Origin: Oscillibacter valericigenes
GTDB taxonomy: Bacteria; Bacillota; Clostridia; Oscillospirales; Oscillospiraceae
Direction of reading: 5' to 3'
Assembly: GCF_021531315.1 (NCBI RefSeq)
Contig: NZ_JAFBIQ010000003.1
Location: 1 to 64,000, forward strand
Length of the DNA stretch: 64,000 bases
Shown here: positions 24,164 to 60,944 of the stretch, in pieces
Numbering within the stretch: position 1 is the first letter of the stretch
Layout: every line of letters begins with the position of its first letter
Program-made: the position numbers and the translations under genes
Notes under the pieces: model-generated
What the model saw: the letters and a program-made list of their open reading frames with translations, nothing else
Databases searched by the model: none
What the model was told of the DNA's origin: nothing

Positions 24164-24198
24164 AAAGGCGCTTATGATCGAACGGAAGGAGGCGCGCC

Positions 24199-25104
24199 AT
24201 GTCCGGCTATGTTCTGCACCTGAGCGAGCAGGAGAATATCACCCTTTCCGCCGCCGTGACGCGACGCCTGCTCGACGGCGGCGACGGCGACGCCGCCCTG
24301 CTCTACCTCTGCCTTTTGAAAAACCGCGGCAGCGCCGCGCCCGAAACGCTCTGCGCCGAGCTCAAATGGGACGAGGCGCGCCGCGCACGCGCCGAGGCCG
24401 CTCTCGCCCGCATGGGACTCGTCAGCGCCCCGAAGGTGCCGGAGCCGCCCGCCCCCGCGCCCGCCGAAGAGCGCCCCGCCTACTCGCGCGACGATGTCGC
24501 CCGCAAGTTAGAGCAGGACACCGCCTTTTCCGCGCTCCTGCGCGAGGTCGAGCGCAAGCTCGGCCCGCTCTCCACGCCCTCCGTCGGCAAGCTCCTCGGG
24601 CTCTATGAGGACCTCGGCCTGCCTGCCGATGTCATCTTCCTGCTCGTCAACCACTGCATCGCCCGCCACGCCGCGCAATACGGCGAGGGACGGCTCCCCA
24701 CCATGCGCCGCATCGAGCAGGAGGGCTATGTCTGGGCGCGCAAGGGCCTGCTCTCGTCCGCAAGCGCCAACGACTACCTCAACGCGCTCCACGCGCGCGA
24801 GAGGCAATACCCCGCCTATATGTCCGTCCTTCGGCTCGGCGAGCGCAAGCCCGCCCCGAGCGAGGAAAAATACCTCTCCGCGTGGCTCGAGATGGGCTTC
24901 CCGCCCGAAACGCTCGCCCTCGCCTATGACAAGACCGTCCTGCGCTGTCACGAATTTAAGTGGTCCTACTGCAACGGCATTTTGAAGCGCTGGCACGAAA
25001 AGGGCCTCCACACGCCCGAGGAGACCGCGGCGGAGAACGCCGCACCAAAAAAGAAAGCTGCCGCATCCGGCGGCAAAAACGACTGGATGAAGCAATACCT
25101 GTAA
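24199..25104 (+). CDS. DnaD-domain primosome protein
   Basis: A 301-residue protein with an N-terminal winged-helix-like region (LSEQENITLSAAVTRRLLD), a Pro/Ala linker near residue 90, and two DnaD/DnaB_2 domains: the first includes LGLYEDLGLPADVIFLLVNH, the second EKYLSAWLEMGFPPETLALAY with the YxxxxGI-like end YCNGILKRW. These proteins act with DnaI to load the replicative helicase during restart and initiation. The start follows GGAGG. The next gene, 13 bases on, is an ATPase loader, which supports the assignment. Confidence 0.88.
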   Translation: MSGYVLHLSEQENITLSAAVTRRLLDGGDGDAALLYLCLLKNRGSAAPETLCAELKWDEARRARAEAALARMGLVSAPKVPEPPAPAPAEERPAYSRDDVARKLEQDTAFSALLREVERKLGPLSTPSVGKLLGLYEDLGLPADVIFLLVNHCIARHAAQYGEGRLPTMRRIEQEGYVWARKGLLSSASANDYLNALHARERQYPAYMSVLRLGERKPAPSEEKYLSAWLEMGFPPETLALAYDKTVLRCHEFKWSYCNGILKRWHEKGLHTPEETAAENAAPKKKAAASGGKNDWMKQYL

Positions 25105-25117
25105 GGGAGGTGACCTC

Positions 25118-26104
25118 ATGTCCTATGACGGAAAGCTCATGCGCCGCGCCATGGCCCGCTTTGAGGAGGCCAAGCAGCGCCGCGCGGACGCCCTGCACGC
25201 GCGCTCCCGCGCGGTCTATGCCGCCGTCCCCCGCATCGCGGAGATCGACGCTGCCCTGCGCGAAACGATGTCCAAGCTCATCGCCTCCGCCCTGCGCCGC
25301 GGCACGGACCCCCGCCCTGCCATCGAAGCGCTCAAGGAGGAAAACCTCGCCCTCCAGCGCGAGCGCGCCGCGCTGCTCGCCGCCCACGGCTACCCCGCCG
25401 ACTACCTTGAGGATAAGCCCGCCTGCCCGCTGTGCGGCGACACGGGCTGGCGCGGCGACGAGGTCTGCTCCTGCCTGAACGACTACTATGCCCGCGTCCA
25501 GCTCGAGGAGCTCTCCCAACTCCTCGACCTCGGCACGCAGAGCTTTGAAACCTTCTCCTTCGAGGTCTACTCCCCCTACGCCCCTCTTGATCAGGACATC
25601 TCCCCCCGCTCGAATATGGAGCGCATTTACGATGCCTGCCGCGACTACGCCTACGAGTTTTCCCCCCGCAGCGGCAATCTGCTCCTCTCCGGCGACCCCG
25701 GCCTCGGCAAGACCTTCCTCTCCGCCTGCATTGCCCGCGTCGTGAGCGAAACGGGCCACAGCGTCGTCTACGACACCGCCGCCCACATCTTCGAGCGCTT
25801 TGAGGCACAGAAGTTCTCGCGCGACGAGAGCGGCGGCGCGGACGAGGATGTTTCCCGCCTGCTGCGCTGCGACCTTCTGATCATCGACGACCTCGGCACC
25901 GAGCTGACCACCGAGTTTGTCCGCAGCGCCCTCTATCAACTCGTCAACACGCGTCTGATGACGAATAAAAAGACCATCATCTCTACCAACCTCTCCCCCG
26001 CCGAGCTCTCCCGCCGCTACGGCGCGAACATCCTCTCCCGCATCGAGGGCAGCTACCGCATCCTCCCCTTCTTCGGTGACGACATCCGCAGGCAGAAAAA
26101 GTAA
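25118..26104 (+). CDS. dnaI: Helicase loader DnaI/DnaC-like ATPase
   Basis: A 328-residue AAA+ ATPase. The N-terminal part has four cysteines, C103, C106, C117 and C119 (CPLC and CSC), likely a zinc site as in DnaI helicase-binding domains. The Walker A motif GDPGLGKT is at 192-199, Walker B LLIIDDLG at 253-260, and sensor 1 STN and an arginine (LSRIEGS) follow. It would bring DnaB helicase to DNA. It is paired with the DnaD-domain gene in one operon that ends in a strong terminator. Confidence 0.9.
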   Translation: MSYDGKLMRRAMARFEEAKQRRADALHARSRAVYAAVPRIAEIDAALRETMSKLIASALRRGTDPRPAIEALKEENLALQRERAALLAAHGYPADYLEDKPACPLCGDTGWRGDEVCSCLNDYYARVQLEELSQLLDLGTQSFETFSFEVYSPYAPLDQDISPRSNMERIYDACRDYAYEFSPRSGNLLLSGDPGLGKTFLSACIARVVSETGHSVVYDTAAHIFERFEAQKFSRDESGGADEDVSRLLRCDLLIIDDLGTELTTEFVRSALYQLVNTRLMTNKKTIISTNLSPAELSRRYGANILSRIEGSYRILPFFGDDIRRQKK

Positions 26105-26116
26105 ATCTCACAGCAA

Positions 26117-26145
26117 AAGGCGGTCTCCCGTTGGGAGACCGCCTT
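26117..26145. terminator. Bidirectional terminator between dnaI and the PBP2 gene
   Basis: AAGGCGGTCTCCC pairs perfectly with GGGAGACCGCCTT around a three-base loop. It lies between two convergent genes. Confidence 0.85.
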
Positions 26146-26163
26146 CTCATTTCTCGAACCGAT

Positions 26164-28224
26164 TTACTTGATGAGCACATTTTCGCCCACGACCGCCTTC
26201 TCCGCGTCGGCGGAGGTAAAGTAGGCGTTTAGGATCTGCACCGCGGTCGAGGCCAGCGCGCCGCCGCTGCCGCCCTTTTCGATCATCACCGCCAGTGCGA
26301 TCTGCGGATCGTCGTAGGGCGCAAAGGCCACGAACACACCGTTGCTGACCTTGCCGCCGGTCTGCGCCGTGCCGGTCTTGGCGGCGGCGTCCACCACGCA
26401 GTCCTTGAAGTAATAGGCCACGCTGCCCGATACGACCAGCTCGCGCATCCCCTCGAGCACCGCCTTGAGGTTCTCCGGCTGAATGTCGATGATCTGCGCG
26501 GGCTGCTCGTTGTACACATCCACGATCGCGGCGCTGTCGTAGGTGCGCACCTCCTTTAACAGGTGCGCGTTGCAGCGCGTCCCGCCGCCCGCGAGCGTCG
26601 CGGTATAGTTCGCCAGCTGCAGCGGCGTAAAGAGCGAATACGACTGGCCGATGGCGGCGGTGAGCGTCTGGCCGTCCGTCCAGTAATGCCCCTCGAGCGA
26701 ATTGACATAGTCCGGCGTGGTCATCACGCCGATCTTCTCGGGGATCTCGATGCCCGTCGGCTCGCCGAGCCCGAAGGCGGAGGCGTAGCGCGCGATGGTC
26801 GAAATGCCCGTCATGCGCCCGATGTCGTAGAAGAAGTAGTTGCACGACACCTTGATCGCCTCGGTCACGTCGATGCGCCCGTGCGTGCCGCCGTTCTGGT
26901 TGTAGAGCCAGCACTTATAGGCCCAGTTGCCGTAGTGGTACACACCCTTGGTCAGAATGGTGGACCGCGGCGTGATGACGCCCGTCTCCAGCGCGGCGAC
27001 GGCCGTCACGGGCTTGAAGGTCGAGCCGGGCGCGTAAGTGCCCTGTGTCGCGCGGTTATAGAACGGCTCGAGCGGATTTTCATAGTTTTCCTGATAATCC
27101 TCGTTGTAGGTCTTGAGGGAAAACGTCGGGTACGAGGCGAGCGCAAGCACCTCGCCCGTGCCGACCTGCACCGCCGCCGCGGCTGCGCCGCGGGCGATGC
27201 CGTCGTCCGCCGTCATATCCTCCACCGTCTCGGCAAGGATGCGCTCCACGTCCTCCTGAAAGTCGATGTCCAGTGTCAGCGCCACGGTGTCGCCCGGCTC
27301 CGGCTCCACAGAGTAAATTTCACCCGTCACCTTGCCTGCGGCGTTAGTCTCCACGATGCGGCGGCCGTTCCTGCCGCGCAGATAGTCCTCAAAGGCAAGC
27401 TCCACGCCGTCGCGCCCGACGCGGTCGCCGTATTTGTAGCCCTTTTCTTTATATTCCTCCCACTTCCCGCTCGGGATCTTTGTCACACGCCCGAGGATGT
27501 GCGCCGCCGCGTCGGTCTGATACTCCCGCACCGACGAGGTGCCGATATGGATGGGCGCATACGCGCCGTCCTTGAGCTCCGCGATCAGCTCCACGGATAT
27601 ATCCGAAACGATGGCCGCCGTCGTGAGCTGCTCGAGCTTTGTCACCGCAAGGCAGTAGCGAAGACCTGCAAGCCGCCGCGCCTCCGCGTCGGTCAAGGCT
27701 TCGTCGATCCCAAACGCCTCGCGCAGCCGCGAGAGCAGCGCCTCCGGACGCAGCGGCGGGTCGGCTTCGGTCGTCAGCGCGTCCGCGTCGGCCCACTTCC
27801 TGCTCACCAGAAAGCTGTTGAGCGCGGTGTGCGAGCCCGAGGCGGAAAAATCATAGGCAAAGGGCGCGCGCTCGTTCAGCGGCAGCCCGTCCTCCCACGC
27901 GACGCCGCGCCGATCCAGCAGCTCCATCAGCCGCGTCAGCTCCTCATTGAGCGCCGCGTCGTCCGCCGGCGCGAGCGAGGCGTCCAGCTCCAGCGTATAC
28001 ACGCTCCGGTTCGTCACCAGCGCCTTGCCGTTGCGGTCGGTCAGCACGCCGCGCGAGGTCACAACGGCCTCGCTCTTCGTATTCGCGCGGATCGAGCGCG
28101 CGCGGTACTCCGCGCCGTGGATCAGCTGCGCGTCAACAAGCGTGGCGAAATACATCGCCAGCACCAGCGAAAAGAGCGCGCCGATCGCCACCAGCCGTCG
28201 GTTGAATTGTTTCTTGTCGTCCAC
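26164..28224 (-). CDS. mrdA: Penicillin-binding protein 2 (class B transpeptidase)
   Basis: A 686-residue class B PBP that cross-links lateral-wall peptidoglycan with the RodA/MreBCD elongation machinery. It has a short cytoplasmic start, one membrane helix (about 10-32), a dimerisation domain (RGVLTDRNGKALVTN is its conserved start) and the transpeptidase domain with catalytic S401 in STFK, S460-C-N462 and K616TGT. All three active-site motifs are intact. It is the last gene of the zapA-U32-maf-mreC-mreD run, which fits an elongation role. An interior insertion enlarges the protein relative to E. coli PBP2. Confidence 0.93.
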   Translation of the reverse strand: MDDKKQFNRRLVAIGALFSLVLAMYFATLVDAQLIHGAEYRARSIRANTKSEAVVTSRGVLTDRNGKALVTNRSVYTLELDASLAPADDAALNEELTRLMELLDRRGVAWEDGLPLNERAPFAYDFSASGSHTALNSFLVSRKWADADALTTEADPPLRPEALLSRLREAFGIDEALTDAEARRLAGLRYCLAVTKLEQLTTAAIVSDISVELIAELKDGAYAPIHIGTSSVREYQTDAAAHILGRVTKIPSGKWEEYKEKGYKYGDRVGRDGVELAFEDYLRGRNGRRIVETNAAGKVTGEIYSVEPEPGDTVALTLDIDFQEDVERILAETVEDMTADDGIARGAAAAAVQVGTGEVLALASYPTFSLKTYNEDYQENYENPLEPFYNRATQGTYAPGSTFKPVTAVAALETGVITPRSTILTKGVYHYGNWAYKCWLYNQNGGTHGRIDVTEAIKVSCNYFFYDIGRMTGISTIARYASAFGLGEPTGIEIPEKIGVMTTPDYVNSLEGHYWTDGQTLTAAIGQSYSLFTPLQLANYTATLAGGGTRCNAHLLKEVRTYDSAAIVDVYNEQPAQIIDIQPENLKAVLEGMRELVVSGSVAYYFKDCVVDAAAKTGTAQTGGKVSNGVFVAFAPYDDPQIALAVMIEKGGSGGALASTAVQILNAYFTSADAEKAVVGENVLIK

Positions 28225-28257
28225 GCGGATCCCTCCCTTCGCGCTCGTTCTCCGTCA

Positions 28258-28770
28258 TTACAGCGTAAATTTTCGGTGCAGGAAGGAAAGCAGCGGATGG
28301 CACACAAGCAACAGCGGCAGCGACGCCAGCAGCTCCCGCGCCGCGCGCAGCGCGATGGCCGATACCGCCGCGTGTCCGCCGGAGAGCAGCGCGGCCGCAG
28401 CGATGAGATCGACCGTCAGAAAGGCCGCCGCGCTCACCGCCAGCGAGCAGAGAAAGCCCGGCTGCAAAACGCTTTTTGCCAGCAGCGAGGCGAGCAGCGC
28501 CGCGAGCGGGAACGCCAGCGTGTACTGGCACGGCAGCGGCGCGGTCAGCGCAAGGTCGCACAAAACGCCGAAGGCCAGTGCAAACACAACGCCCTCCAGC
28601 CGATCCTCCATCGAGGCGATCACCGCCGGCAGCAGCGGCGGCAGAAAGGGCGCGACGCCCCACACGCGCAGGCGTGAGAGCGTCAGCGCGTGCGCGAAAA
28701 GCAGCAGCAGGCACGCAGCGCCGTAAGCGGTCCATTTGACCGCTGTATCGCGCGTGGTCGACGGCGACAT
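28258..28770 (-). CDS. mreD: Rod shape-determining protein MreD
   Basis: A 170-residue protein with about five membrane helices and little else, as expected for MreD, for example LPPLLPAVIASMEDRLEGVVFALAFGVLCDL with its conserved acidic turn between helices. MreD links MreC and the MreB filament to the wall-synthesis enzymes. Its identity rests on hydropathy, size and its position between mreC and the PBP2 gene, as the family is poorly conserved. Confidence 0.85.
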   Translation of the reverse strand: MSPSTTRDTAVKWTAYGAACLLLLFAHALTLSRLRVWGVAPFLPPLLPAVIASMEDRLEGVVFALAFGVLCDLALTAPLPCQYTLAFPLAALLASLLAKSVLQPGFLCSLAVSAAAFLTVDLIAAAALLSGGHAAVSAIALRAARELLASLPLLLVCHPLLSFLHRKFTL

Positions 28771-28784
28771 GGCAGCGCCCCCTT

Positions 28785-29624
28785 TCAGTCAACAATGTCG
28801 AATTCCTTCACGATAAATACCTCGCTCAGCTCACCTAAGTGCGCCGAGGGCGCGAGCACCGCGTACCGCGCCAGCCCGTCGTCGCCCGTGCGCACGGCCT
28901 CCACCGTGCCGATCACCAGCCCGCCGGGATAAAACCCGCCGAGCCCCGAGGTCGTCACCACATCGCCCGAGAGCAGCTGCGCATCGGCGGAAAGATAGCT
29001 CAGCTTCAGCCTTCCCTCGCCCATCAGCGCAAGGTCGCCCTCCGCGACCGCGACCTCCTGCGTGCGGAACACCCGCGCGCCCAGCTCGGTATCCGTATCG
29101 ATCACCGTCAGTACCGTGCACCAGTTGTAGCCCACCGCCGACACCACGCCCACGAGATAGCCCTCCGAGGACACCACGCAGTCGTTCTTCTCCACGCCGT
29201 GCACCGTGCCGCGGTTGAGCGTCAGCGCGCTCGTCCAGTTCGTGTTCTCGCGCTCGATGACCGCCGCGGCCTCAAACACAAGGTCGCGCCGCTGCGCGCG
29301 CAGCTCCAAAAGCTCGCGCAGCAGGGCGTTCTCCGCGCGGTCGGCCTCGGCCTGCCGCGCGTCGCGCTCCAGCTCGGCCACGCGCTCGCGCAGCGCCTCA
29401 TTTTCCGCCAGCAGGTCGGAGTAGTCCTTATAGTAATGCTGCTTGTCCTCCACCCAGCCCGCCACCGCCGTCACGGCGGAGCGGAACGGATAGGTCAGCA
29501 CGCCCACCGCGTTCTGCAAAAAGCCCGAGGTCGCGCTCAGATAGCTCAGCACGCTGATGAGCACCGCGCAGAGCGTTGTGACGATCAGCAGCCGCAGACC
29601 GTATTTTTCCAAAAAGTTGCGCAA
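28785..29624 (-). CDS. mreC: Rod shape-determining protein MreC
   Basis: MreC is the periplasmic-side scaffold of the elongasome. I start it at a TTG codon (29624), eight bases after GGGGAGGA; this gives 279 residues beginning RNFLEKYGLRLL. The open frame reaches 29690, but that would overlap the end of maf. After one membrane helix (about 8-28) comes a coiled coil (LLAENEALRERVAELERDA) and the two-barrel MreC domain, with NRGTVHGVEKNDCVV and the conserved FYPGGLVIGTVE. Fifteen bases separate it from mreD. Confidence 0.92.
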   Translation of the reverse strand: MRNFLEKYGLRLLIVTTLCAVLISVLSYLSATSGFLQNAVGVLTYPFRSAVTAVAGWVEDKQHYYKDYSDLLAENEALRERVAELERDARQAEADRAENALLRELLELRAQRRDLVFEAAAVIERENTNWTSALTLNRGTVHGVEKNDCVVSSEGYLVGVVSAVGYNWCTVLTVIDTDTELGARVFRTQEVAVAEGDLALMGEGRLKLSYLSADAQLLSGDVVTTSGLGGFYPGGLVIGTVEAVRTGDDGLARYAVLAPSAHLGELSEVFIVKEFDIVD

Positions 29625-29653
29625 AACGCAGTCCTCCCCTCGCCGCTCGTTTT

Positions 29654-30232
29654 TTAGAAGAAGCGCAGGCCGAAGTGCTTCGTCAGGCACTGCCCCAGCT
29701 TTTCCACCGGCAGCCCCATCACATTATAAAAGTCGCCCTCGATGCGCTCGACGAGCAGCGCCCCAAGGCTCTGTACGCCGTAGGCGCCCGCCTTGTCCAT
29801 CGGCTCGCCGGTGGCGATGTAGGCGCGCAGCTCATCCTCCGTGCAGGGCCGGAAGTAGACCTCCGTCGACACCGTAAAGGCTTCCGCCTTGTCGCCCTGC
29901 CGCACTGTCACGCCCGTGCAGACCGTGTGTCGGTTGCCCGCAAGCTCGGTGAGCATCCGCAGCGCGTCGTCCTCGTCACGCGGCTTGCCGAGCCGGTCGT
30001 TTTCCAAAAACACCATCGTGTCCGCCGTGATGAGAATGTCCTCGGGCGCGACCAGCGGCGCCGCCGCGTCGGACTTCAGGCGCGAGATGTGCGCGACGAT
30101 CTCCCGCGGCGAAAGCCCCTCGGGATAGGTCTCCTCCACCTCGGGGGTGACGATGGAAAAATCGGTAATGCCCATGCGCCGCAGCAGCTCATGGCGGCGC
30201 GGCGACTTCGAAGCCAACACAATATGCGGCAT
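29654..30232 (-). CDS. maf: Maf-family nucleoside triphosphate pyrophosphatase
   Basis: Hydrolyses dTTP/UTP or modified nucleotides and has been linked to septum formation. The 192-residue protein begins MPHIVLASKSPRRHELLRRM, with the SxSPRR motif, and has TADTMV with the catalytic aspartate, and GDFYNVMGLPVEKL near the end. I start it at 30232 behind AGAGGA; two further codons upstream in frame offer nothing better. maf next to mreCD is a common Firmicutes arrangement. Confidence 0.94.
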   Translation of the reverse strand: MPHIVLASKSPRRHELLRRMGITDFSIVTPEVEETYPEGLSPREIVAHISRLKSDAAAPLVAPEDILITADTMVFLENDRLGKPRDEDDALRMLTELAGNRHTVCTGVTVRQGDKAEAFTVSTEVYFRPCTEDELRAYIATGEPMDKAGAYGVQSLGALLVERIEGDFYNVMGLPVEKLGQCLTKHFGLRFF

Positions 30233-30296
30233 GATCCGTCCTCTTTTCAATACGATGTGTAATATAATGCTGTAAAATTACCTTTTGTTTTCGTTT

Positions 30297-32411
30297 TTAT
30301 TCCACGCCGCGGTAGAAAAGTCCGCGCGTGAGGTCCTTGGGCGCGTAGTCCTCGCGCCCCTTGTAGGCGCGCAGCACGCGCAGGCACTCCTCCGGCGACT
30401 CGGTCGTGAAGCGCAGCCGCGCGTAGGTCAAGCCGATTTTCCGATACTCCGGCTTGTCCGCCAGCCACAGCACCTTGCCGTTCTGGAGCTCGCTCCGGCA
30501 GCCGTAGGCGTGCAGCACGGGGAAGCGCTCGCCCACGCGGTCGGTCAGCTCCGGCGCGGCGGCACAGGCGCTGTCCGCGTGGGCTGCGTCGCAGCGCCCC
30601 TTGCCGTAGCGGCAGCCGAATTCGTTCGCCACGATGCAGTTCTCCGTGATCATCAGCGGCAGCCGCCCGTAGACGATGGCCTCGCAGGGGATGCACTTGG
30701 CGATGTCCCGCAGCTGCTCGTGCCGCAGCTCGAAGGAAAGCGTCGCGCTCTCCAGCCCCTGCTCCTTCAGAAACCGCAGCGCCGCGGAGTTGAACACATT
30801 CAGCCCGAAGTCCCCGCGCAGCGCGAAGCCCATCCCCCGCACGAGCGCAAAATGCCCTAAATTTCCGAGCACCGCCGTCTCTACGCCGCGCTCACGCGCG
30901 GCGCGCAGCTGCTCACGCAGCGCCGCCTCATCCGCCGTCCGCCACACGCGCGGCAGCACCGCGGCAAAGTTCGTCTGTCCGCGATATTTTTCAACATCGA
31001 CCGCCTCTATCAGCTCCAGCGGCACATACACCGTCTCCACGCCCTCGTGCACCAGCGCGTCGGTCAGCTGCCCGGGCCGATAGATCGACACCGTAAGGCG
31101 CGGCGGCTCGGTCGGGTTTTTGATCCTCCCGCTCGGAACGAACGCCCCCTCGCGCCGCTCGGGCAGCGCGGTCCGCACCGCCTCCAGCGCCGCGAGCGCC
31201 TCGCGCCGCAGCGCGTTGAGCGCGCTCGCGCTGACAGACAGTCCGTCCTCCAGCGCCACCGCGCAGTCCGACACCGTGAACGCCGTCCCGCCGGTCTTGC
31301 GCAGCCGGGCCTCGACCTCCTCCGCCGTCAACGCGCGGTTTCGCGCCGCCTCGGGCACAGCGCCCGCTGCGGTGACCGTATGCCCGTCCGCGTCCTCGGC
31401 GGTCAGCGTCATCGGTACGCCCGCGCGGATCTCCGCGCGCAGCCTCACAGGTACGAGCCGCAAGTCCTCCCTTTCATACGCCGCCCGCAGCTCGCCGAAC
31501 CATTCCTCCGGCCAGCGCGCGTCCTCGGGACGGACGCCGAACATCTCTTTTCCGCGCGCGCCGCGGTAGTAGCCGTCCGTAAAGCCGTCGCGCGAGAACG
31601 CCAGCGCCAGCTTTTTCTGCTCGTCCGCCGTCGGCGCGCGATGCTCGCGCAGCAGCGCGGCATAGATGCCCGTCACCGCCGCCACATATTCGGGCCGCTT
31701 CATGCGCCCCTCTAACTTCAAACACGCCACGCCCATCTCCGCCATCTCGTCGGCGTAGGCGGCAAGGTTCGCGTCGCGCAGCGAGAGCGGATTGCCGTCC
31801 GCCTTTCCGTGCCAGCCGTAGCGCAGGCGGCAGGGCTGCGCGCACGCGCCGCGGTTCCCGCTTCGGCCGCCGATCACCGCCGACATCTCGCACATCCCCG
31901 AGTAGCACATACAAAGCGCCCCGTGCGCGAAGGTCTCCACCTCGATCGGCGCGCCCGCGACGATGTCTCTGATGTCCTCGCGCGACAGCTCCCGCGCCAG
32001 CACCGCGCGCGTCATGCCGAGCCGCGCGGCCTCCTCTACGCCCGAGAGCGTGTGCAGCGCCATCTGCGTGCTCGCGTGCAGCGGCACATCGGGGATCACC
32101 GCGCGCAGCGTTTCATAAACGCCCCAGTCCTGCACCAGAATCGCGTCCACGCCGTACTCGCTCGCCCTGCGCGCGGTCTCCGCGAGCGCGGGCAGCTCGC
32201 GGTCGGTCACGAGCGTGTTGAGCGTCAGATACACCCTCACGCCCCGCAAATGGCAGTAGCGCACCGCCGCCAGAAATTCCTCATCGCTGAAGTTTCTGGC
32301 GCTGCGGCGCGCATTGAAGCTGCCAAAGCCCATATAAACGGCGTCCGCGCCGCTCTGCACGGCGGCAATGAGCGCCTCGCGTCCGCCCGCGGGAGAGAGC
32401 AGTTCTGCCAT
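30297..32411 (-). CDS. U32-family peptidase
   Basis: A 704-residue protein. The N-terminal two thirds is the U32 barrel: ELLSPAGGREALIAAVQSGADAVY, QDWGVYE, LHASTQM, then the signature ETFAHGALCMCYSGMCEMS, whose cysteines, together with those in GACAQPCR, look able to bind a metal cluster. A C-terminal DUF3656-like part and a second barrel-like region follow. U32 proteins include peptidases and RNA/ubiquinone hydroxylation factors; the exact reaction here is unknown. Its start overlaps the zapA stop by one base (TAATG), so the two are coupled. Confidence 0.88.
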   Translation of the reverse strand: MAELLSPAGGREALIAAVQSGADAVYMGFGSFNARRSARNFSDEEFLAAVRYCHLRGVRVYLTLNTLVTDRELPALAETARRASEYGVDAILVQDWGVYETLRAVIPDVPLHASTQMALHTLSGVEEAARLGMTRAVLARELSREDIRDIVAGAPIEVETFAHGALCMCYSGMCEMSAVIGGRSGNRGACAQPCRLRYGWHGKADGNPLSLRDANLAAYADEMAEMGVACLKLEGRMKRPEYVAAVTGIYAALLREHRAPTADEQKKLALAFSRDGFTDGYYRGARGKEMFGVRPEDARWPEEWFGELRAAYEREDLRLVPVRLRAEIRAGVPMTLTAEDADGHTVTAAGAVPEAARNRALTAEEVEARLRKTGGTAFTVSDCAVALEDGLSVSASALNALRREALAALEAVRTALPERREGAFVPSGRIKNPTEPPRLTVSIYRPGQLTDALVHEGVETVYVPLELIEAVDVEKYRGQTNFAAVLPRVWRTADEAALREQLRAARERGVETAVLGNLGHFALVRGMGFALRGDFGLNVFNSAALRFLKEQGLESATLSFELRHEQLRDIAKCIPCEAIVYGRLPLMITENCIVANEFGCRYGKGRCDAAHADSACAAAPELTDRVGERFPVLHAYGCRSELQNGKVLWLADKPEYRKIGLTYARLRFTTESPEECLRVLRAYKGREDYAPKDLTRGLFYRGVE

Positions 32412-32725
32412 TATTTTCTGTTCTGCAGCTTGAAGAGTTCGCGCTTGAGCTCGCTCACCTCGTTCTTGGCCTGCGCGGCCTCGTCGAGATACTGCTTGAG
32501 CTGGCGGCGCAGCGCCTCGCTGGCCTCGCGCTCCTTAAAAAGCTCGTCTGCGATATTCGCGGCAGCGAGCACGGCGGCGTCGGTGCGGCCGACCTTGGCG
32601 CCGGTGAGCATTTCGTCCATCTTCGTGCCGACATAAGCGCCGACCTTCTGCATGTAGGAGGGCGCTTCCTCGGCGACAAAGGTATATTCCTCCCCGCAGA
32701 TGCTGACGGTAACGCGGTTTTCCAT
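32411..32725 (-). CDS. zapA: Cell division protein ZapA
   Basis: A 104-residue ZapA-like protein that bundles FtsZ filaments at mid-cell. It begins MENRVTVSICGEEYTFVAEE, the usual short beta-hairpin domain, and ends in a long Glu/Lys-rich coiled coil (REASEALRRQLKQYL onward). The ATG at 32725 follows AAAGGAG; the frame is open to 32791 but without a better start. It leads the zapA-U32 gene pair seen in other Clostridia and the cell-shape genes beyond. Confidence 0.9.
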   Translation of the reverse strand: MENRVTVSICGEEYTFVAEEAPSYMQKVGAYVGTKMDEMLTGAKVGRTDAAVLAAANIADELFKEREASEALRRQLKQYLDEAAQAKNEVSELKRELFKLQNRK

Positions 32726-32779
32726 CGTGATCGCTCCTTTCCGTTCCTCCGCGGAACAGCCCGTAGTAATACAGTTTCT

Positions 32780-32808
32780 AATATAGCACAAACTCCGTTT
32801 GGATAAAA
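32780..32808 (-). promoter_or_regulatory. Promoter for the zapA-U32-maf-mre run
   Basis: On the minus strand TATATT (32780-32785), preceded by TGC as in an extended -10, with a poor -35 (TTTTAT) 17 bp up. Confidence 0.5.
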
Positions 32809-32854
32809 GAGGTTTTTGGAAAATTTACAATTTCTCCCGCGCCGCTTTGAAATA

Positions 32855-32883
32855 TTGCATTTTGAGAGAAATGGCCTTAAAAT
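32855..32883 (+). promoter_or_regulatory. Promoter for the GH13 amylase gene
   Basis: TTGCAT (32855-32860), a 17-bp spacer and TAAAAT (32878-32883), 49 bp before the start. No catabolite-repression (cre) site is evident. Confidence 0.6.
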
Positions 32884-32932
32884 AAAATGAGGAACATACC
32901 CTTATCGCATACGAAAGCCGCGAGGTAACATT

Positions 32933-34786
32933 ATGTCAACTTTATTCGATCCCCGCGACGCGCGCTGCAAGTCCCCCTTCGGCGCGGTCACGACCTTCGC
33001 CGCGGTGGACTTCACCCTCTACCCGCGCGAGCACGCCGTCACCGGCTGCACCCTGCTCACCCACCACGAGTTTTCCGACCGCTGGACCGAGACCGAGCTC
33101 CTCCCCACCACGGACGAGGCGGGCGAGCACATCTTCTTTGGTACCTTTTTCGCCCCCTCTCAGCCGGAGCTGATCTGGTATCACTTCCGCCTCCACTGGG
33201 CGGACGGCGGCGTGAGCTGCTATGGCAGGGGCGGCTTTCAGGCTTGGGACAAGGTGACCCCATGGCAGCTCACCGTCTACGACGGCCGCGCCGAAACGCC
33301 CGGCTGGTTCGGCCGCGGCGTCACCTATCAGATCTTCCCCGACCGCTTTTTCCGTGCCAAGGCGCGCAGCGCCGACGGCCTGATCGGACACCGCACCCTC
33401 CACGAAAGCTGGGACGAAGCGCCGCTGCGCGGCCCCAACGAGCGCGGCGACTACTGCGAGGACTTTTTCGGCGGCGACCTCGCCGGCATCACGGAAAAGC
33501 TCGACTACCTCGTCTCGCTCCATGTCACCACGCTCTACCTCAACCCCATTTTCGAGGCCGCCTCCAACCACCGCTACGACACTGCCGACTACGAAACGAT
33601 CGACCCCCTGCTCGGCGACGAGAACGACTTCCGTACCCTCTGCGCGGAGGCGAAAAAGCGCGGCATCCGCGTCATGCTTGACGGCGTGTTCAACCACACG
33701 GGCGCGAAGAGCCGCTACTTTAACGCCGACGGCTTCTACCCAACCCCCGGCGCGGCGCAGGGCCCCGCCTCCCCCTACTATCCGTGGTACCGCTTTCACC
33801 CCTTCCCCACGGATTACGATGCGTGGTGGGGCATCAAGAACCTGCCCGCCGTAAACGAGTTGGACGAAAGTTATGTCAACTACATCGTCACCGGCGAAAA
33901 CTCTGTCATTCGCCGCTGGCTCCGCGCGGGCGCGAGCGCGTGGCGGCTCGATGTCGCCGACGAGCTGCCCGACGAGTTCATCGCGGACATCCGCGCCGTG
34001 ATGCAGCGGGACTTCCCCGACGCCTACCTTCTCGGCGAGGTCTGGGAGGACGGCACCACCAAGGTCGCCTACTCCAAGCGCCGCTGCTACCTGCTCGGCG
34101 GCGAGCTGCACAGCCTGATGAACTACCCCTTCCGCACGGCGCTTTTATCCTACCTCAAGGGCACGACCGGCGCGGAGACCTTCCGCGACGCGATGGAGAC
34201 CCTCCGCGAGAACTATCCCTCACCCGCCTTCTACGGCGCGATGAACTTTCTCTCCACGCACGACACGCCGCGCCTGCTCTCCGTGCTCGGCTGCGGGCGG
34301 CAGCCGGACCGCGCTGACTACCGCCTCTCCCCCGCCGAGCGCGAGCGCGGGACCGCGCTGCTGAAGCTCGCCGCCGCCGTTCTCTACGCCTTTCCCGGCT
34401 CGCCCACCGTCTACTACGGCGACGAGGCGGGCATGGAGGGCTTTGAGGACCCCTTCAACCGCGGCACCTATCCGTGGGGACGCGAGGACGCGGCGCTGCT
34501 CGACTATTTTCGCGCCCTCGGTGCGCTCCGCGCGGCGCGGGCGTCGCTGCAAAGCGGCGGCATCCGCTACCTTTTGGCCGAGGGGCGCACACTCTGCTTT
34601 GAGCGGCGCGCGGGCGATGAGGTGACGCTCTGCGCGGTCAATGCCGGCGCAGAGAGCTTCCGCGTTGACCTGCCGTGGGCAACCGCGCTTGCGCGCGACG
34701 TGCTCAGCGGTCAGGAGTTTCTTGCCGAAAACGGTCGGCTGCGCCTTACCCTCGCGCCCTATGACGCGCTCCTGCTGACCGAGTAG
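32933..34786 (+). CDS. GH13 alpha-amylase/neopullulanase-type glycoside hydrolase
   Basis: A 617-residue cytoplasmic GH13 enzyme (no signal peptide). An N-terminal beta-sandwich domain (about 1-125) precedes the barrel. The GH13 regions are present: DGVFNHTG, the nucleophile D340 in WRLDVADE, the acid/base E369 in LGEVWED and D444 in STHDTPR, with FFGGDLAGI typical of cyclomaltodextrinase/neopullulanase/maltogenic amylase subfamilies. It probably hydrolyses imported maltodextrins. No sugar transporter or regulator is adjacent. Codons end strongly in C, unlike the parA gene 270 bp away. Confidence 0.93.
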   Translation: MSTLFDPRDARCKSPFGAVTTFAAVDFTLYPREHAVTGCTLLTHHEFSDRWTETELLPTTDEAGEHIFFGTFFAPSQPELIWYHFRLHWADGGVSCYGRGGFQAWDKVTPWQLTVYDGRAETPGWFGRGVTYQIFPDRFFRAKARSADGLIGHRTLHESWDEAPLRGPNERGDYCEDFFGGDLAGITEKLDYLVSLHVTTLYLNPIFEAASNHRYDTADYETIDPLLGDENDFRTLCAEAKKRGIRVMLDGVFNHTGAKSRYFNADGFYPTPGAAQGPASPYYPWYRFHPFPTDYDAWWGIKNLPAVNELDESYVNYIVTGENSVIRRWLRAGASAWRLDVADELPDEFIADIRAVMQRDFPDAYLLGEVWEDGTTKVAYSKRRCYLLGGELHSLMNYPFRTALLSYLKGTTGAETFRDAMETLRENYPSPAFYGAMNFLSTHDTPRLLSVLGCGRQPDRADYRLSPAERERGTALLKLAAAVLYAFPGSPTVYYGDEAGMEGFEDPFNRGTYPWGREDAALLDYFRALGALRAARASLQSGGIRYLLAEGRTLCFERRAGDEVTLCAVNAGAESFRVDLPWATALARDVLSGQEFLAENGRLRLTLAPYDALLLTE

Positions 34787-34840
34787 GTCGCGCCGGACGA
34801 TGCTCTCCCCCACCCTGCATTTTCCCGCGCGGGGTCAGAG

Positions 34841-34856
34841 TGTTTCACGTGAAACA
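34841..34856. other. parS: parS site 1
   Basis: TGTTTCACGTGAAACA is the canonical ParB-binding parS sequence without a mismatch. It is nested in a larger perfect palindrome (34836-34861). It lies 203 bp before parA. Confidence 0.97.
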
Positions 34857-34880
34857 CTCTGCCGCCCCACCACCGGGCCG

Positions 34881-34915
34881 AGAGGAATGTTTCACGTGAA
34901 ACATCCCTCTCTTTT
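34881..34915 (+). terminator. Terminator-like hairpin containing parS site 2
   Basis: AGAGG and CCTCT flank an 18-bp palindrome built on parS, with one mismatch pair, and CTTTTTCTTC follows. In RNA this would form a stem of more than ten pairs before a T-run, so it can end the amylase transcript. One sequence would then serve both DNA segregation and transcription termination. Confidence 0.55.
34888..34903. other. parS: parS site 2
   Basis: A second exact TGTTTCACGTGAAACA, 47 bp after the first. Paired parS sites next to parAB mark the origin-proximal nucleation point for ParB spreading. Confidence 0.97.
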
Positions 34916-34960
34916 TCTTCGTGTGCCGCGCAAAATTTTTGCGAGAAATTTCCGCTTTGC

Positions 34961-34988
34961 AGTTGAAATCGCATTGATTTGTGTTATA
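34961..34988 (+). promoter_or_regulatory. Promoter for parA-parB
   Basis: TTGAAA (34961-34966), a 16-bp spacer and TATACT (34983-34988), 70 bp before the parA start and 57 bp after parS site 2. ParB spreading from parS could repress it. Confidence 0.6.
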
Positions 34989-35058
34989 CTGATTTTTGCA
35001 ATTACAGTTTTATGGGCCGAGGCGCTGTCTGTCTTCGGCGGAAAGCGGGTGTCGGTTT

Positions 35059-35814
35059 TTGGCAAAGATCATAGCCATAGTCAATCAGAAGGGCGGCGTC
35101 GGCAAGACGACCACCTGTGTCAACCTGACCGCCGCGCTGCGCGAGCGCGGCAAGCGCGTGCTGCTGTGCGATTTCGATCCGCAGGCGAACTCCACCTCGG
35201 GCATGGGGGTGGACAAAACCGTGTCGCAGGGCGTTTACGATGTGCTCATCAACGGCGCGGACGCAAAAAGCGCGGTGGCCGCTACACGCTACGGCGATGT
35301 GCTGCCCTCGTCAAAGTCGCTCGCGGGCGCGGGCATCGAGATGATCGACCTGCCCGACCGCCAGTTTCGGCTGAAAAAGGCGCTCGACGCCCTCTCCCCA
35401 GACTACGACTTCATTCTCATCGACTGCCCGCCCTCGCTGGAGCTTCTGACGCTCAACGCGCTGTGCGCGGCGGACTCGCTGCTCGTGCCGGTGCAGGGCG
35501 AATACTACGCGCTTGAGGGCCTTTCCGACCTGATGAACACCGTGCGCATCGTGCGCCGCAGCCTCAACCCCAAGCTGGAGCTGGAGGGTGTGCTGCTGAC
35601 GATGTTCGACGCGCGCACCAACCTCGCCATGCAGGTGGCTGAGGAGGTCAAGCGCTACTTCCCCGGCAAGGTGTATGCAGCGGTCATTCCGCGCAATGTG
35701 CGGCTTTCCGAGGCGCCGAGCCATGGCAAGCCCATCAGCGCCTACGACCGTTCCTCCCGCGGTGCAGAGGCCTATGCCGCCTTCGCCGAGGAATTTCTGA
35801 AGCAGAACGGCTGA
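35059..35814 (+). CDS. parA: Chromosome-partitioning ATPase ParA (Soj)
   Basis: A 251-residue ParA ATPase that forms DNA-bound gradients to move ParB-parS complexes and, in Firmicutes, controls DnaA. I start it at a TTG (35059), giving AKIIAIVNQKGGVGKTTT with the deviant Walker A KGGVGKTT at 11-18; longer frames exist upstream but family members begin here. FDPQANSTSG and LIDCPPSL complete the nucleotide site. The ribosome site is weak. Codons end largely in G, a switch from the amylase gene just upstream. Confidence 0.95.
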   Translation: MAKIIAIVNQKGGVGKTTTCVNLTAALRERGKRVLLCDFDPQANSTSGMGVDKTVSQGVYDVLINGADAKSAVAATRYGDVLPSSKSLAGAGIEMIDLPDRQFRLKKALDALSPDYDFILIDCPPSLELLTLNALCAADSLLVPVQGEYYALEGLSDLMNTVRIVRRSLNPKLELEGVLLTMFDARTNLAMQVAEEVKRYFPGKVYAAVIPRNVRLSEAPSHGKPISAYDRSSRGAEAYAAFAEEFLKQNG

Positions 35815-35865
35815 CGCAAAACCATCTTGTTTTTGATCACACCCCAACAGAAAGGAGACTTTTTC

Positions 35866-36756
35866 ATGGCAACCGCGAACCGTGGGCTGGGCAGAGGGCT
35901 CGGCGCGCTGCTCGGCGACGAGGCGCTGCGCACCGAAAGCGCCGACAGCCTTTATCTCCCCATCTCGCAGGTCGAGAGCTGCGCCGCGCAGCCGCGCAAG
36001 TATTTTGACGACGCTGCGCTCGCCGACCTCGCCGACTCCATCCGCGAGCACGGCATCATTCAGCCCCTGACCGTGCGCAAGCTCGCCTCGGGCTACTATC
36101 AGATCATTGCCGGTGAGCGCCGCTGGCGCGCCGCCCGACTGGCAGGGTTGAACGAGGTGCCCGCCATCGTCATCGAGGCGGACGACCGCAAGGCGATGGA
36201 GCTGGCGCTCATTGAAAATTTGCAGCGCGAAGACCTCAACCCCATCGAAGAGGCCGAGGGCTACAAAACGCTGATCGAGACCTATCACATGACGCAGGAG
36301 GACGCCGCCGCGACCGTCGGCAAGTCCCGCCCCACTGTTGCAAACGCGCTGCGCCTGCTCGCGCTGGACGAGGGTGTGCGCGAGGCCGTGAAAAACGGCA
36401 ATCTGTCCGCGGGCCATGCCCGCGCACTGCTCCCCCTCTCCGCCGCCAAGCAGCGCGAGGCCGCGGATCATATCATTGCGCAGAAGCTGAGCGTCCGGCA
36501 GACCGAGGCGCTGGTCAAGCGCATGACGACGCCGAAAAAGCAGAAGCTCTACCCCATCGAGCAGGTGGTGGCAGAGAGCTACGGCGCGGTTGCCGCGCAG
36601 GAGCTTGGCACAAAGCTCGGCCGGGGCGTGAAGATCGTGCCGGGGCGCAAAAAGGGCCGCATCGAGCTGGATTACTACGATCTTGACGACCTCAACGACC
36701 TGCTTGAGGCGCTTGCCACCTTAGAGCAACGCAAAAACGGAGGAAGTAAAAAGTGA
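35866..36756 (+). CDS. parB: Chromosome-partitioning protein ParB (Spo0J)
   Basis: A 296-residue ParB that binds parS, hydrolyses CTP and spreads as a sliding clamp. It starts with ANRGLGRGLGALLG, the ParA-stimulating N-terminal peptide, then QPRKYF, GIIQPLTVRK, the CTP box GERRWRAARLAG and ENLQREDLNPIEEAEGY. The parS-reading HTH is MTQEDAAATVGKSRPTVAN. The C-terminal dimer domain follows. I start it at 35866 behind AAAGGAG. Two perfect parS sites lie just upstream of the operon. Confidence 0.96.
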   Translation: MATANRGLGRGLGALLGDEALRTESADSLYLPISQVESCAAQPRKYFDDAALADLADSIREHGIIQPLTVRKLASGYYQIIAGERRWRAARLAGLNEVPAIVIEADDRKAMELALIENLQREDLNPIEEAEGYKTLIETYHMTQEDAAATVGKSRPTVANALRLLALDEGVREAVKNGNLSAGHARALLPLSAAKQREAADHIIAQKLSVRQTEALVKRMTTPKKQKLYPIEQVVAESYGAVAAQELGTKLGRGVKIVPGRKKGRIELDYYDLDDLNDLLEALATLEQRKNGGSKK

Positions 36757-37319
36757 CCGATCTCATTCATGAGGCACCGCAGCCGGAGGAGCAAAAAAGC
36801 GCGGCGCCGGAAAAGCCGACGACGGAAAAGGAGCGGCAAAAGCGCGTTTACGCCTACATTGCCGTACTCTTCACCGTTGCGTTCATTCTGATTTTGTGGT
36901 CGTTTTTGGCCAATCATCGCGCCAATCAGGAGGTCATCCGCGAGCTGCGCGGCAGCACGAGCCTGGTGCAGTCCACGCTCGAGCAGAACGCCGAGCTGGA
37001 GGGCGAGATCGAGGCGCTCGAAGCACAGATCGAGGAAATGAAGCAGTCGTTCGCCGAGGCCGAGGAGGCATATCGCGCGTCCGGAGACCGGCAGGCGGCC
37101 ATTATCACCGCGCTCGACTGGCTCGGCGAGCTGGAGCGCTACTACAACGCCGGTATGCTGAGCGTGGCACGGCAGACCGTGCAGGCGATCCGCGACAACG
37201 GACTTGAACCGTTTCTGCCTGACTATCCGCTCCACACCTCCGCCGACGGCGACTATGAAGCGCCCGCCGCGCGGTACGAGAAGATCGTGAACAAGCTGTT
37301 CCCCGACGGGCTCGACTGA
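36753..37319 (+). CDS. Unknown bitopic membrane protein with coiled coil
   Basis: A 188-residue protein starting with GTG, overlapping the parB stop by four bases (GTGA), so it is translationally coupled to parB. A charged, proline-containing cytoplasmic segment (1-30) leads to one membrane helix (about 33-50, YIAVLFTVAFILILWSFL), then a coiled coil (TLEQNAELEGEIEALEAQIE, to about 115) and a C-terminal region of about 70 residues with no motif I recognise. The layout resembles divisome proteins such as FtsL/FtsB but is longer. Its coupling to parB suggests a role in segregation or division at the membrane (inference). Confidence 0.8.
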   Translation: MTDLIHEAPQPEEQKSAAPEKPTTEKERQKRVYAYIAVLFTVAFILILWSFLANHRANQEVIRELRGSTSLVQSTLEQNAELEGEIEALEAQIEEMKQSFAEAEEAYRASGDRQAAIITALDWLGELERYYNAGMLSVARQTVQAIRDNGLEPFLPDYPLHTSADGDYEAPAARYEKIVNKLFPDGLD

Positions 37320-37406
37320 GCCGCGCCCGCCGCACAAGGCTTGTGCCGACGCAGTTCCTGTGCAGGGCAAGCCATGCGATAACTTTTGATAACGAGGTAG
37401 AAAACC

Positions 37407-38711
37407 ATGCTGGATATTCGTTTTATCCGTGAAAACCCCGACCTTGTGCGGGAAAACATCAAGAAAAAGTTTCAGGACGCCAAGCTCCCCCTTGTGGACG
37501 AGGTGCTGGAGCTGGACGAAAAAAAGCGCGCCGCCATCACCGAGGCCAGCGAGCTGCGCGCACAGCGCAACGCGCTGAGCAAGCAGGTGGGTATGCTGAT
37601 GGGGCAGGCCAAGAAGGATCCGAGCAAGCTCGAGGAGGCCGAGGCGGTCAAGGCCAAGGTCAAGGCGCAGGCTGAGCGGCTCTCCGAGCTGGAGAAGCTG
37701 GAGGTCGAATATGAGGAAAAGCTGTATCGGGATATGCTGCAGATCCCGAACATCATCGACCCCAGCGTGCCCATCGGCCCCGATGACAGCCACAATGTGG
37801 AGGTGGAGCGCTTCGGCGAGGCGAAAACGCCCGACTTCGACATCCCCTATCACACAGAGATCATGGAGCGCTTTGACGGCGTGGACATGGACGCCGCGGG
37901 GCGCGTGTCCGGCGCGGGCTTCTACTACCTGCTCGGCGACATTGCGCGGCTGCACGCGGGCGTGCTGGCCTATGCGCGCGATTTCATGATCGATAAGGGC
38001 TTCACCTTCTGCATCCCGCCGTATATGATCCACGGCAATGTGGTCGAGGGCGTGATGAGCCAGACCGATATGGACGCGATGATGTATAAGATCGAGGGCG
38101 AGGACCTCTATCTGATCGGCACGAGCGAGCACTCGATGGTCGGCCGCTTCATCGGCGAAATCCTGCCCGAGGAGAGCCTGCCGCAGACGCTGACCTCCTA
38201 CTCCCCCTGTTTCCGCAAGGAGAAGGGCTCCCACGGCATCGAGGAGCGCGGCGTGTACCGCATCCACCAGTTTGAAAAACAGGAAATGATCGTGGTGTGC
38301 AAGCCCGAGGACAGCATGAAGTGGTATGAGCAGATGTGGAGGTGGAGTGTGGAGCTGTTCCGCAGTCTGGACATTCCCGTGCGCCAGTTAGAGTGCTGCT
38401 CCGGCGACCTCGCCGATCTGAAGGTCAAGAGCTGCGACATCGAGGCGTGGTCCCCGCGCCAGCAGAAATACTTCGAGGTCTGCTCCTGCTCCAACCTCGG
38501 CGACGCGCAGGCGCGTCGGCTGAAGATCCGCGTCAAGGGCGCGGACGGCAAGCTGTATCTGCCCCACACGCTCAACAACACTGTGGTCGCGCCGCCGCGT
38601 ATGCTCATCGCGTTTTTGGAGAACAATTTGCAGGCGGACGGCAGCGTGCTCATTCCCGAGGTGCTGCGGCCGTATATGGGCGGCAAGCGCGCTCTGACGT
38701 CGAAGCACTGA
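37407..38711 (+). CDS. serS: Seryl-tRNA synthetase
   Basis: Charges tRNA-Ser, and tRNA-Sec where present. The 434 residues comprise the N-terminal coiled-coil arm (about 30-105, including LDEKKRAAITEASELRAQRN) and a class II core with motif 2 SPCFRKEKGSHG, EDLYLIGTSEHSMVG and motif 3 near the end. There is no T-box leader. Upstream lies only a small GCACAA/TTGTGC hairpin (37332-37346). Serine synthetases near parAB and oriC are common in Firmicutes. Confidence 0.95.
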   Translation: MLDIRFIRENPDLVRENIKKKFQDAKLPLVDEVLELDEKKRAAITEASELRAQRNALSKQVGMLMGQAKKDPSKLEEAEAVKAKVKAQAERLSELEKLEVEYEEKLYRDMLQIPNIIDPSVPIGPDDSHNVEVERFGEAKTPDFDIPYHTEIMERFDGVDMDAAGRVSGAGFYYLLGDIARLHAGVLAYARDFMIDKGFTFCIPPYMIHGNVVEGVMSQTDMDAMMYKIEGEDLYLIGTSEHSMVGRFIGEILPEESLPQTLTSYSPCFRKEKGSHGIEERGVYRIHQFEKQEMIVVCKPEDSMKWYEQMWRWSVELFRSLDIPVRQLECCSGDLADLKVKSCDIEAWSPRQQKYFEVCSCSNLGDAQARRLKIRVKGADGKLYLPHTLNNTVVAPPRMLIAFLENNLQADGSVLIPEVLRPYMGGKRALTSKH

Positions 38712-42544: not shown

Positions 42545-42572
42545 AATAAATTGCCGCCGATGGCGGCATATC

Positions 42573-42612
42573 AAAGGGGGGTATTCTCTTAGTTGAAGAG
42601 AATACCCCCTTT
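42573..42612. terminator. Bidirectional terminator after aspS
   Basis: A 17-bp stem of AAAGGGGGTATTCTCTT type with one bulged G and an AGTTG loop, flanked by A and T runs. A TGCCGCC/GGCGGCA hairpin lies just before it (42552-42568). Confidence 0.85.
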
Positions 42613-42639
42613 CATTGTGCCGCGCGGGGCGCGGCGGCG

Positions 42640-58635: not shown

Positions 58636-60944
<2,309 letters not shown>

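Follow-up and report, generated by a model that had tools for sequence, protein, structure and literature searches.

Strand composition switches polarity near parS rather than at dnaA-dnaN in two Oscillibacter species

Where does replication start when the usual marks of a bacterial origin point to different places? The dnaA-dnaN operon and the skew minimum are jointly used to place bacterial origins, as set out in the portion of PMC7198777 drawn on here. In the gut lineage described below, dnaA-dnaN and the switch in strand composition disagree by about 29 kb, with evidence behind each. The conflict can be used to ask whether initiation is able to move away from the DnaA-box cluster, and what price head-on replication of dnaA-gyrA carries; should initiation take place at dnaA after all, the lesson would be that origin prediction can be misled by a sharp local skew. 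Among the literature matches listed, none has a title on the origin of replication in Oscillospiraceae.

The window, the whole stretch of DNA analysed, comprises bases 1-64,000 of a 205,068-bp contig (C56) of an Oscillibacter valericigenes genome (G000; Oscillospiraceae; 2.48 Mb in 122 contigs). By ParA, the nearest named relative is Oscillibacter sp. MSJ-31 (G150; ParA 93% and DnaN 94% identical), whose contig 3 has the gene order of the window, with parA near 49.0 kb, parS at 48.9 kb and dnaN at 78.2-79.3 kb. Genes were predicted with a home-made codon-model caller and G-C skew was taken at four-fold sites on the coding strand. The change-point model, one baseline plus one polarity switch, was fitted to 79 genes for the window and 83 for MSJ-31, with a minimum of 20 four-fold G+C sites per gene, as in the uncorrected fits of relatives and the fits within 10 kb of parA. 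Orthologue-corrected fits required 30 such sites, and the corrected gene series also three other genomes per gene. The orthologue-based effects (35 genes, each from 4 to 80 genomes or loci) are a gene's average deviation, and are relative values only, the source relatives having mixed polarity of their own.

The composition switch and its controls

In both species, composition switches polarity near parS rather than at dnaA-dnaN. A preliminary description of the window had reported such a switch beside parS, citing G and C counts of four plus-strand samples, and we confirm both: the counts are exact on recount, the cumulative skew minimum of the 205-kb contig lies at 36,447 (-2437, versus -1329 at 63,500, in a genome itself in 122 contigs), and the best four-fold change-point is 34,648 (R2 0.63). 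Between 2 and 34 kb, raw skew in windows of 2 kb is either negative or close to zero; between 36 and 64 kb it is positive for the most part, with exceptions near 40-42 and 44-47 kb. In 60-nt bins, G is below C in 406 of 541 between 2.3 and 34.8 kb and above C in 290 of 472 between 35.06 and 63.4 kb; beyond 89 kb the bins are even (887 versus 908 among 1929). At four-fold sites, plus- and minus-strand genes stand at -0.52 and +0.11 left of parS, at -0.07 and -0.49 from 35 to 65 kb, at +0.05 and -0.57 from 65 to 90 kb, and at -0.26 and -0.24 beyond 89 kb, that is, with a C bias on either strand. Since most genes are C-biased regardless of strand, the signal is the difference between the strands, and MSJ-31 shows the same pattern of strand classes.

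Placing the switch at dnaA-dnaN lowers the R2 to 0.13 in the window; in MSJ-31 the best switch, at 48,613, adjoins parS (R2 0.56, versus 0.18 at dnaA-dnaN). None of 300 circular shifts matched the best fit in either genome, and the switch fell nearer to dnaA than to parS in one of 400 block bootstraps of the window and none of 400 of MSJ-31, where the 95% interval is 40.7-61.6 kb. Intergenic skew strongly supports the left side (-0.16 over 2.3-34.8 kb) and weakly supports the right (+0.054 over 35.06-63.4 kb, z 1.9, with the DnaA-box region left out); over 54.4-63.4 kb it has no G excess (-0.055, z -0.7, 165 G+C sites). The resulting regions are the following.

24,100-37,500, no strand: bootstrap interval of the switch, where fork polarity would change; the best corrected step lies between the genes at 30,297 and 32,411
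2,301-64,000, no strand: window part of a strongly strand-asymmetric block (contig 2.3-93.5 kb), delimited by collinearity with MSJ-31 and by skew

Neither codon selection nor gene identity explains the switch. Over 35 genes, a pivot at parS gives an R2 of 0.63 from polarity alone and of 0.79 once the orthologue-based gene effects are included; a pivot at dnaA-dnaN with gene effects gives 0.06, the value obtained without any pivot. In the gene-corrected series of the window, all eight genes from 23.2 to 30.3 kb are negative, and positive values are found for all 23 from 35.06 to 65.5 kb, which take in the dnaA-gyrA operon; of the two genes in between, the amylase gene is negative and the short one at 32.4 kb positive, and further right come values of +0.11 at 66.1 kb and -0.05 at 67.3 kb. 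The MSJ-31 counterparts of the two groups are negative in 8/8 and positive in 21/23, the exceptions being -0.02 and -0.03. In the window, the gene at 30.3 kb and the one at 32.4 kb flank the best corrected step (p 0.002 by block permutation; 0.004 in MSJ-31), and the corrected means within 12 kb of dnaA-dnaN, +0.29 to its left and +0.15 to its right, reveal no switch there. The ribosomal operon is C-biased too (four-fold skew -0.61), with Leu CTN skew of +0.10 and a T fraction of 0.181 at four-fold sites. The dnaA-gyrA group (-0.56, -0.46 and 0.075, respectively) differs from this codon fingerprint and matches that of the plus-strand genes on the left (Leu CTN -0.37, 6.3% T). Expression-driven codon choice as the cause is rejected by this fingerprint together with the orthologue-corrected fits.

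The parS locus and the dnaA-dnaN site

The interval of the switch holds the following features.

23,202-23,984, minus strand: second ParB-family gene, probably noc (Pfam ParB_N and HTH_ParB; the genus has further, weaker ParB matches of its type)
24,199-25,104, plus strand: DnaD/DnaB-like replication initiation protein (Pfam DnaB_2, 1.2e-20)
25,118-26,104, plus strand: DnaI-like helicase-loader ATPase (Pfam IstB_IS21, 4e-14, and Bac_DnaA)
24,199-32,725, no strand: inverted segment (DnaD-like, DnaI-like, PBP through to U32 peptidase and ZapA), by gene order and strands relative to G125, G036 and G082
32,933-34,786, plus strand: alpha-amylase gene upstream of parS, with lagging-type composition (-0.41)
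34,787-35,058, plus strand: intergenic region with two parS sites and, by eye, an AT-rich parA promoter; motif scans found no DnaA boxes in it
34,841-34,856, plus strand: parS 1, TGTTTCACGTGAAACA, exact match
34,888-34,903, plus strand: parS 2, TGTTTCACGTGAAACA, exact match
35,059-35,814, plus strand: parA (soj; Pfam AAA_31/CbiA)
35,866-36,756, plus strand: parB (spo0J; Pfam ParB_N, HTH_ParB, ParB_C)

The parS consensus adjoins parA and parB, as in chromosomal ParABS systems. Within 3 mismatches, 0.10 parS matches are expected in the window; the two exact sites at 34,841 and 34,888 are the only exact ones genome-wide, and their palindromes fold (z -4.07). By their predicted products, the noc-like, DnaD-like, DnaI-like and ParAB genes make up a typical origin neighbourhood. 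Our scans of the interval for boxes, trios and repeats found no initiator site. No DnaA box (CCACA core, at most 2 mismatches) occurs between 33,690 and 37,493; within 1 mismatch, boxes in 17-38 kb are confined to 25,408 and 32,798, with no cluster near parS. A DnaA-trio beside a box with an AT-rich unwinding element is absent at 34,787-35,058. An AT-rich stretch had been described beside parS; it is present, though modest: when 100-bp windows across the first 100 kb are ranked by AT content, it is not in the top 25. A plasmid-like origin was rejected, no iteron-like array being found among the best 20 of 29 repeat families in 23-37 kb.

The neighbourhood has itself been rearranged. In most named relatives the genes left of parA run co-directionally with parA, and the breakpoint of the inverted segment (32,726-32,932) falls inside the pivot interval. 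Given this inversion of 24.2-32.7 kb, the pivot may have been near 24 kb earlier; both places are inside the interval. A flip-flopping segment was rejected, no inverted repeat of at least 28 nt being found to flank 35 and 63 kb in a search of 23-64 kb.

At the other end of the window lies the dnaA-gyrA operon.

56,087-58,615, minus strand: gyrA (Pfam search), lagging-type composition (-0.53)
58,636-60,585, minus strand: gyrB (Pfam search), lagging-type composition (-0.62)
60,946-62,049, minus strand: recF (Pfam SMC_N and synteny), composition -0.41
62,282-63,394, minus strand: dnaN (named from its translation and its place beside dnaA), composition -0.63
63,395-63,611, minus strand: dnaA-dnaN intergenic region of oriC2 type, with five DnaA boxes (at most 2 mismatches, CCACA core), a DnaA-trio and an AT-rich stretch
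63,442-63,467, minus strand: DnaA box TTTTCCACA, 11-nt spacer and CTACTA (DnaA-trio start), once in the genome
63,612-64,000, minus strand: window part of dnaA (gene 63,612-64,901 on the contig; PF00308 match at C56:64146-64622)

A DnaA-box cluster noted earlier near 63.5 kb is real and spans 63.46-63.57 kb. Five boxes, the last being TTTTCCACA, are followed by an 11-nt spacer, CTACTACGA and an AT-rich stretch, so that the region at 63,395-63,611 has the box cluster, trio and AT-rich stretch expected of an oriC; it lacks a local composition switch (R2 0.13, or 0.06 gene-corrected). The pattern of a box followed by CTA[N]CTA matches once in the 205-kb contig, at 63,459. MSJ-31 has three boxes at dnaA-dnaN and keeps the last box, the spacer length, the trio and the AT-rich stretch. 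In each of the seven other relatives read, the region holds 2 to 7 boxes; the CTACTA trio is clear in three of them (G086, G071 and G080) and less distinct in G082, G036, G125 and G078. Four of 18 genomes of the genus carry the exact box-trio motif, namely G155, G158, the window genome and G160 (with the coordinates of MSJ-31). Each match lies directly upstream of dnaN, and the exact spelling is missing in the other 14; the reversed control pattern gave one match in these 18, in G157. The rpmH-dnaA region (C56 64902-65264, just past the window) is without DnaA boxes in 7 of 9 family genomes, so a DnaA-dependent origin would be monopartite here, and a bipartite origin is rejected. Among the clostridia compared in the part of PMC7561715 drawn on here, rpmH-dnaA holds 9 to 19 DnaA boxes, under a box definition that differs from ours.

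As had been supposed from their strand, gyrA, gyrB, recF, dnaN and dnaA have lagging-type composition. This matters since dnaN, recF, gyrB and gyrA adjoin the dnaA-dnaN site in 8/8 relatives read: an operon that adjoins oriC would always be leading whatever inversions occurred, had dnaA-dnaN always been the origin. A simple recent inversion of parS-dnaA is rejected by the same gene-order reasoning, as it cannot give a lagging-type gyrA if oriC always adjoined it. Thus, either forks have long come from the left or composition does not track forks here. In a comparison that is indirect because every differing site also holds one ancestral base, four-fold sites at which the window genome and MSJ-31 differ have a skew of -0.20 in the dnaA-gyrA group, beside -0.18 in the left plus-strand genes, -0.20 in the right minus-strand genes and 0.01, -0.06 and -0.05 in the leading-type classes; the other minus-strand genes of the middle zone are intermediate (-0.10). 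Gene bootstraps of these sites give -0.16 (-0.22 to -0.11) for the pooled middle minus-strand genes, about -0.19 (-0.23 to -0.14) for the left plus-strand genes and -0.06 (-0.12 to 0.00) for the middle plus-strand genes. Had forks through dnaA-gyrA recently reversed, the differing sites should have shifted toward leading type; the composition of the group suggests no clear relaxation since the split of both species.

A collinear block and its relatives

Aligned pieces from 2301 to 93532 match positions 12093 to 109871 of MSJ-31 contig 3 in order, a block of about 91 kb. Beyond 93.5 kb, gene order relative to MSJ-31 (1.06 Mb of which was sampled) is broken by inversions and relocations, and the strand asymmetry is lost at about 90 kb, about where synteny breaks. 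When 53 MSJ-31 stretches of 20 kb were compared, the plus-strand skew at Leu/Val/Ala/Pro sites had a size of at least 0.24 in six: four from or edging the collinear block, one over a prophage-like operon and one at the start of contig 1. It is possible that the block kept its orientation long enough for full asymmetry while other regions flip.

Several other elements were seen along the way. The strongest skew among the 53 stretches (+0.52, plus strand, Leu/Val/Ala/Pro sites) belongs to a stretch of MSJ-31 contig 4 (L178) whose ~6-20 kb part appears, from the translations, to be a prophage-like structural operon. A palindrome, GGGGGTATTCTCTT, at 42563-42623 of the window recurs at the edge of an extra stretch of about 1 kb in MSJ-31 (L165, ~5860-5900), which contains a small ORF and lies between the zapA-like and amylase genes; one arm of GGGGGTATTCTCTT has a near copy at one other place of the window genome (C11:40151), and the palindrome is perhaps a small mobile repeat. 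A T-box leader (RF00230) at 52608-52810 precedes the plus-strand gene at 52881.

The switch at parS is not a regular trait of the family. Of 150 family genomes, ParB could be placed in 147 and DnaN in 139, and where the dnaA and parAB blocks share a contig their order and orientation vary; gene blocks around the origin flip often in Oscillospiraceae. G166, G159 and G151 are further close genomes, at 81-83% DnaN identity. An exact parS core lies beside parA in most named relatives. Raw skew around parA was weak across 80 named loci; in 68 of them the sequence extends 3 kb or more to either side, and 11 of these 68 show a change at parA from negative to positive. Gene-level fits within 10 kb of parA at 75 loci yielded the sign pattern of the window in 5, the reverse in 8 and none passing +-0.1 on both sides; they are too short-ranged to judge, since MSJ-31 itself (L042, -0.34 and +0.03) fails. 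In longer pivot fits before gene correction, from which G005 was left out, G036 had a reversed step near parS and G125 no notable or significant pivot; the step of G086 lay about 16 kb from dnaA-dnaN, 8 kb to the right of parA. In G071 the step was equally weak all the way from parS to dnaA, and G082 had a weak one at dnaA-dnaN (R2 0.10). After correction, eight genomes could be compared and significance was confined to the window genome and MSJ-31 (G086 p 0.062, others at least 0.18); the corrected mean left of dnaA-dnaN within 12 kb was negative in none of the eight.

The single-contig genome G078 has the gene order of the window. Starting at dnaA and passing parS, its raw skew is positive in 10/10 bins of 10 kb up to 100 kb; it is also positive in 6 of 7 farther samples from 0.15 to 1.9 Mb, and negative or near zero from 2.2 to 4.22 Mb, a pattern that places its raw-skew origin at or near (just before) dnaA; its gene-level skew near dnaA is small. 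Could polarity itself be reversed in this family? In G125 and G078, where skew was sampled around the 16S genes, each of the five complete copies occupies the strand that most nearby samples show to be G-rich on that arm, with one sample near the 903-kb 16S gene of G078 slightly negative; 16S matches were also found in G128, and G000, G150 and G098 gave none. From the 16S strands, the usual polarity, with a G-rich leading strand, appears to apply in the family, and a reversed polarity is rejected as the cause.

Competing readings and known systems

We infer that strand composition reflects fork polarity, and tentatively propose, at a confidence just short of even, that forks diverge near parS (~24-37 kb) in the lineage of the window genome and MSJ-31. 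They would diverge roughly 30 kb from the DnaA-box cluster, moving leftward through 2-34 kb and rightward through 35-90 kb, and dnaA-dnaN-recF-gyrB-gyrA would be replicated as lagging-strand, head-on genes, with a mostly passive dnaA-dnaN site. The asymmetry would be strong only in the 91-kb block because orientation was kept there and reshuffling dilutes it elsewhere. At ordinary fork speeds, the stretch from 35 to 63.5 kb would take a fork no more than about a minute; over so short a distance, an intact dnaA-dnaN site that is not used would be replicated passively. The fuller proposition, in which a start near parS without canonical DnaA boxes is combined with an intact, passively replicated dnaA-dnaN and a head-on dnaA-gyrA, is more doubtful, though still a possibility that we take seriously.

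Several results count against an origin near parS. The putative unwinding motif of box and trio has its single site at dnaA-dnaN, where both species retain it. Scans near parS turned up neither a DnaA-box cluster nor a trio, and no iteron-like array among the best 20 of 29 repeat families. The asymmetry ends at about 90 kb, so no genome-wide V is seen. Relatives do not follow suit, with a raw switch at parA in 11/68, the opposite sign in G036 before gene correction, a weak step at dnaA-dnaN in G082 and a raw-skew origin at or near dnaA in G078. Intergenic support is weak over 35-63.4 kb and nil over 54.4-63.4 kb, and the other middle-zone minus-strand genes are intermediate at differing sites. 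Of the earlier proposal that the origin sits at 34.8-35.05 kb, the polarity switch near parS stands, whereas the position widens to an interval of about 24-37 kb, the locus is without DnaA boxes, the unwinding motif occurs only at dnaA-dnaN and the switch is not regular in relatives.

It is possible, if rather unlikely, that an ordinary DnaA-dependent oriC has always operated at dnaA-dnaN, that the reversed composition of 35-56 kb is the fossil of a recent inversion of the parAB segment and that the C-rich codons of dnaA-gyrA come from lineage-specific selection. The architecture of dnaA-dnaN, which is that of C. difficile oriC2 as far as it is described in the part of PMC7561715 drawn on here, and the single occurrence of box and trio in the genome argue for it, as do the frequent flips of origin-region blocks in the family, the inversion of 24.2-32.7 kb here, the polarised raw skew of G078 from dnaA onward and the missing G excess in intergenic DNA of 54.4-63.4 kb. 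However, dnaN-gyrA, which adjoin oriC in eight relatives, are of lagging type without clear relaxation, and the dnaA-gyrA genes are near the genome mean in relatives, with a codon fingerprint unlike the ribosomal one. Moreover, the window genome and MSJ-31 share the pattern at a four-fold divergence of 19-28%, so it is not recent. An improbable alternative is that an ectopic origin near parS formerly shaped the composition and that initiation has since returned to dnaA-dnaN. Such a relic would reconcile an intact dnaA-dnaN unwinding site with lagging-type dnaA-gyrA and suits the intermediate value of the other middle-zone minus-strand genes at differing sites (-0.10); yet dnaA-gyrA have not relaxed toward leading type (-0.20, beside -0.18 in the left plus-strand genes), and the unwinding site must have been kept intact though unused.

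Less probable again is an asymmetry created by a process other than replication and centred on parS, for example, by SMC loading through ParB meeting transcription. This would fit the regional extent of the asymmetry, a best change-point that falls at parS in the window and in MSJ-31 alike, and scans that turned up no initiator motif at that place; on the other hand, the exact parS core lies by parA in most named relatives and the raw switch appears in only 11/68, and we know of no mechanism by which SMC loading is strand-mutagenic. An effect of chance, through the way operons of high and low expression happen to be placed on the two strands, might be suggested by the C bias of the ribosomal operon (-0.61) and the small number of independent units that operons represent; it is very improbable and largely refuted by the better fit with orthologue effects (0.63 to 0.79) and the bias of the left intergenic DNA (-0.16).

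How would a divergence of forks near parS compare with known systems? As a ParABS locus the region is alike to other origin-proximal ones, with two perfect parS sites upstream of parA-parB and a noc-like gene nearby; its own anatomy is ordinary and only the overlying composition pivot is unusual. In E. coli-type chromosomes oriC lies tens of kb away from dnaA, and a similar separation of origin and dnaA would apply here. The displaced oriC of E. coli carries its own DnaA boxes, whereas none are clustered near the pivot. The dnaA-dnaN site resembles C. difficile oriC2: its DnaA boxes, TTTTCCACA among them, its CTACTA trio and its AT-rich stretch follow one another as set out in that part of PMC7561715. 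It differs from the Bacillus/Clostridioides type in that the composition of the window does not switch there. In cyanobacteria with DnaA-independent or multi-origin replication, the surroundings of dnaA need not mark the working origin, according to the portion of PMC7198777 drawn on here; in those bacteria skew is irregular, dnaA and dnaN lie apart and the chromosome is often present in many copies, whereas in the window dnaA-dnaN-oriC2 is intact and the local skew is sharp.
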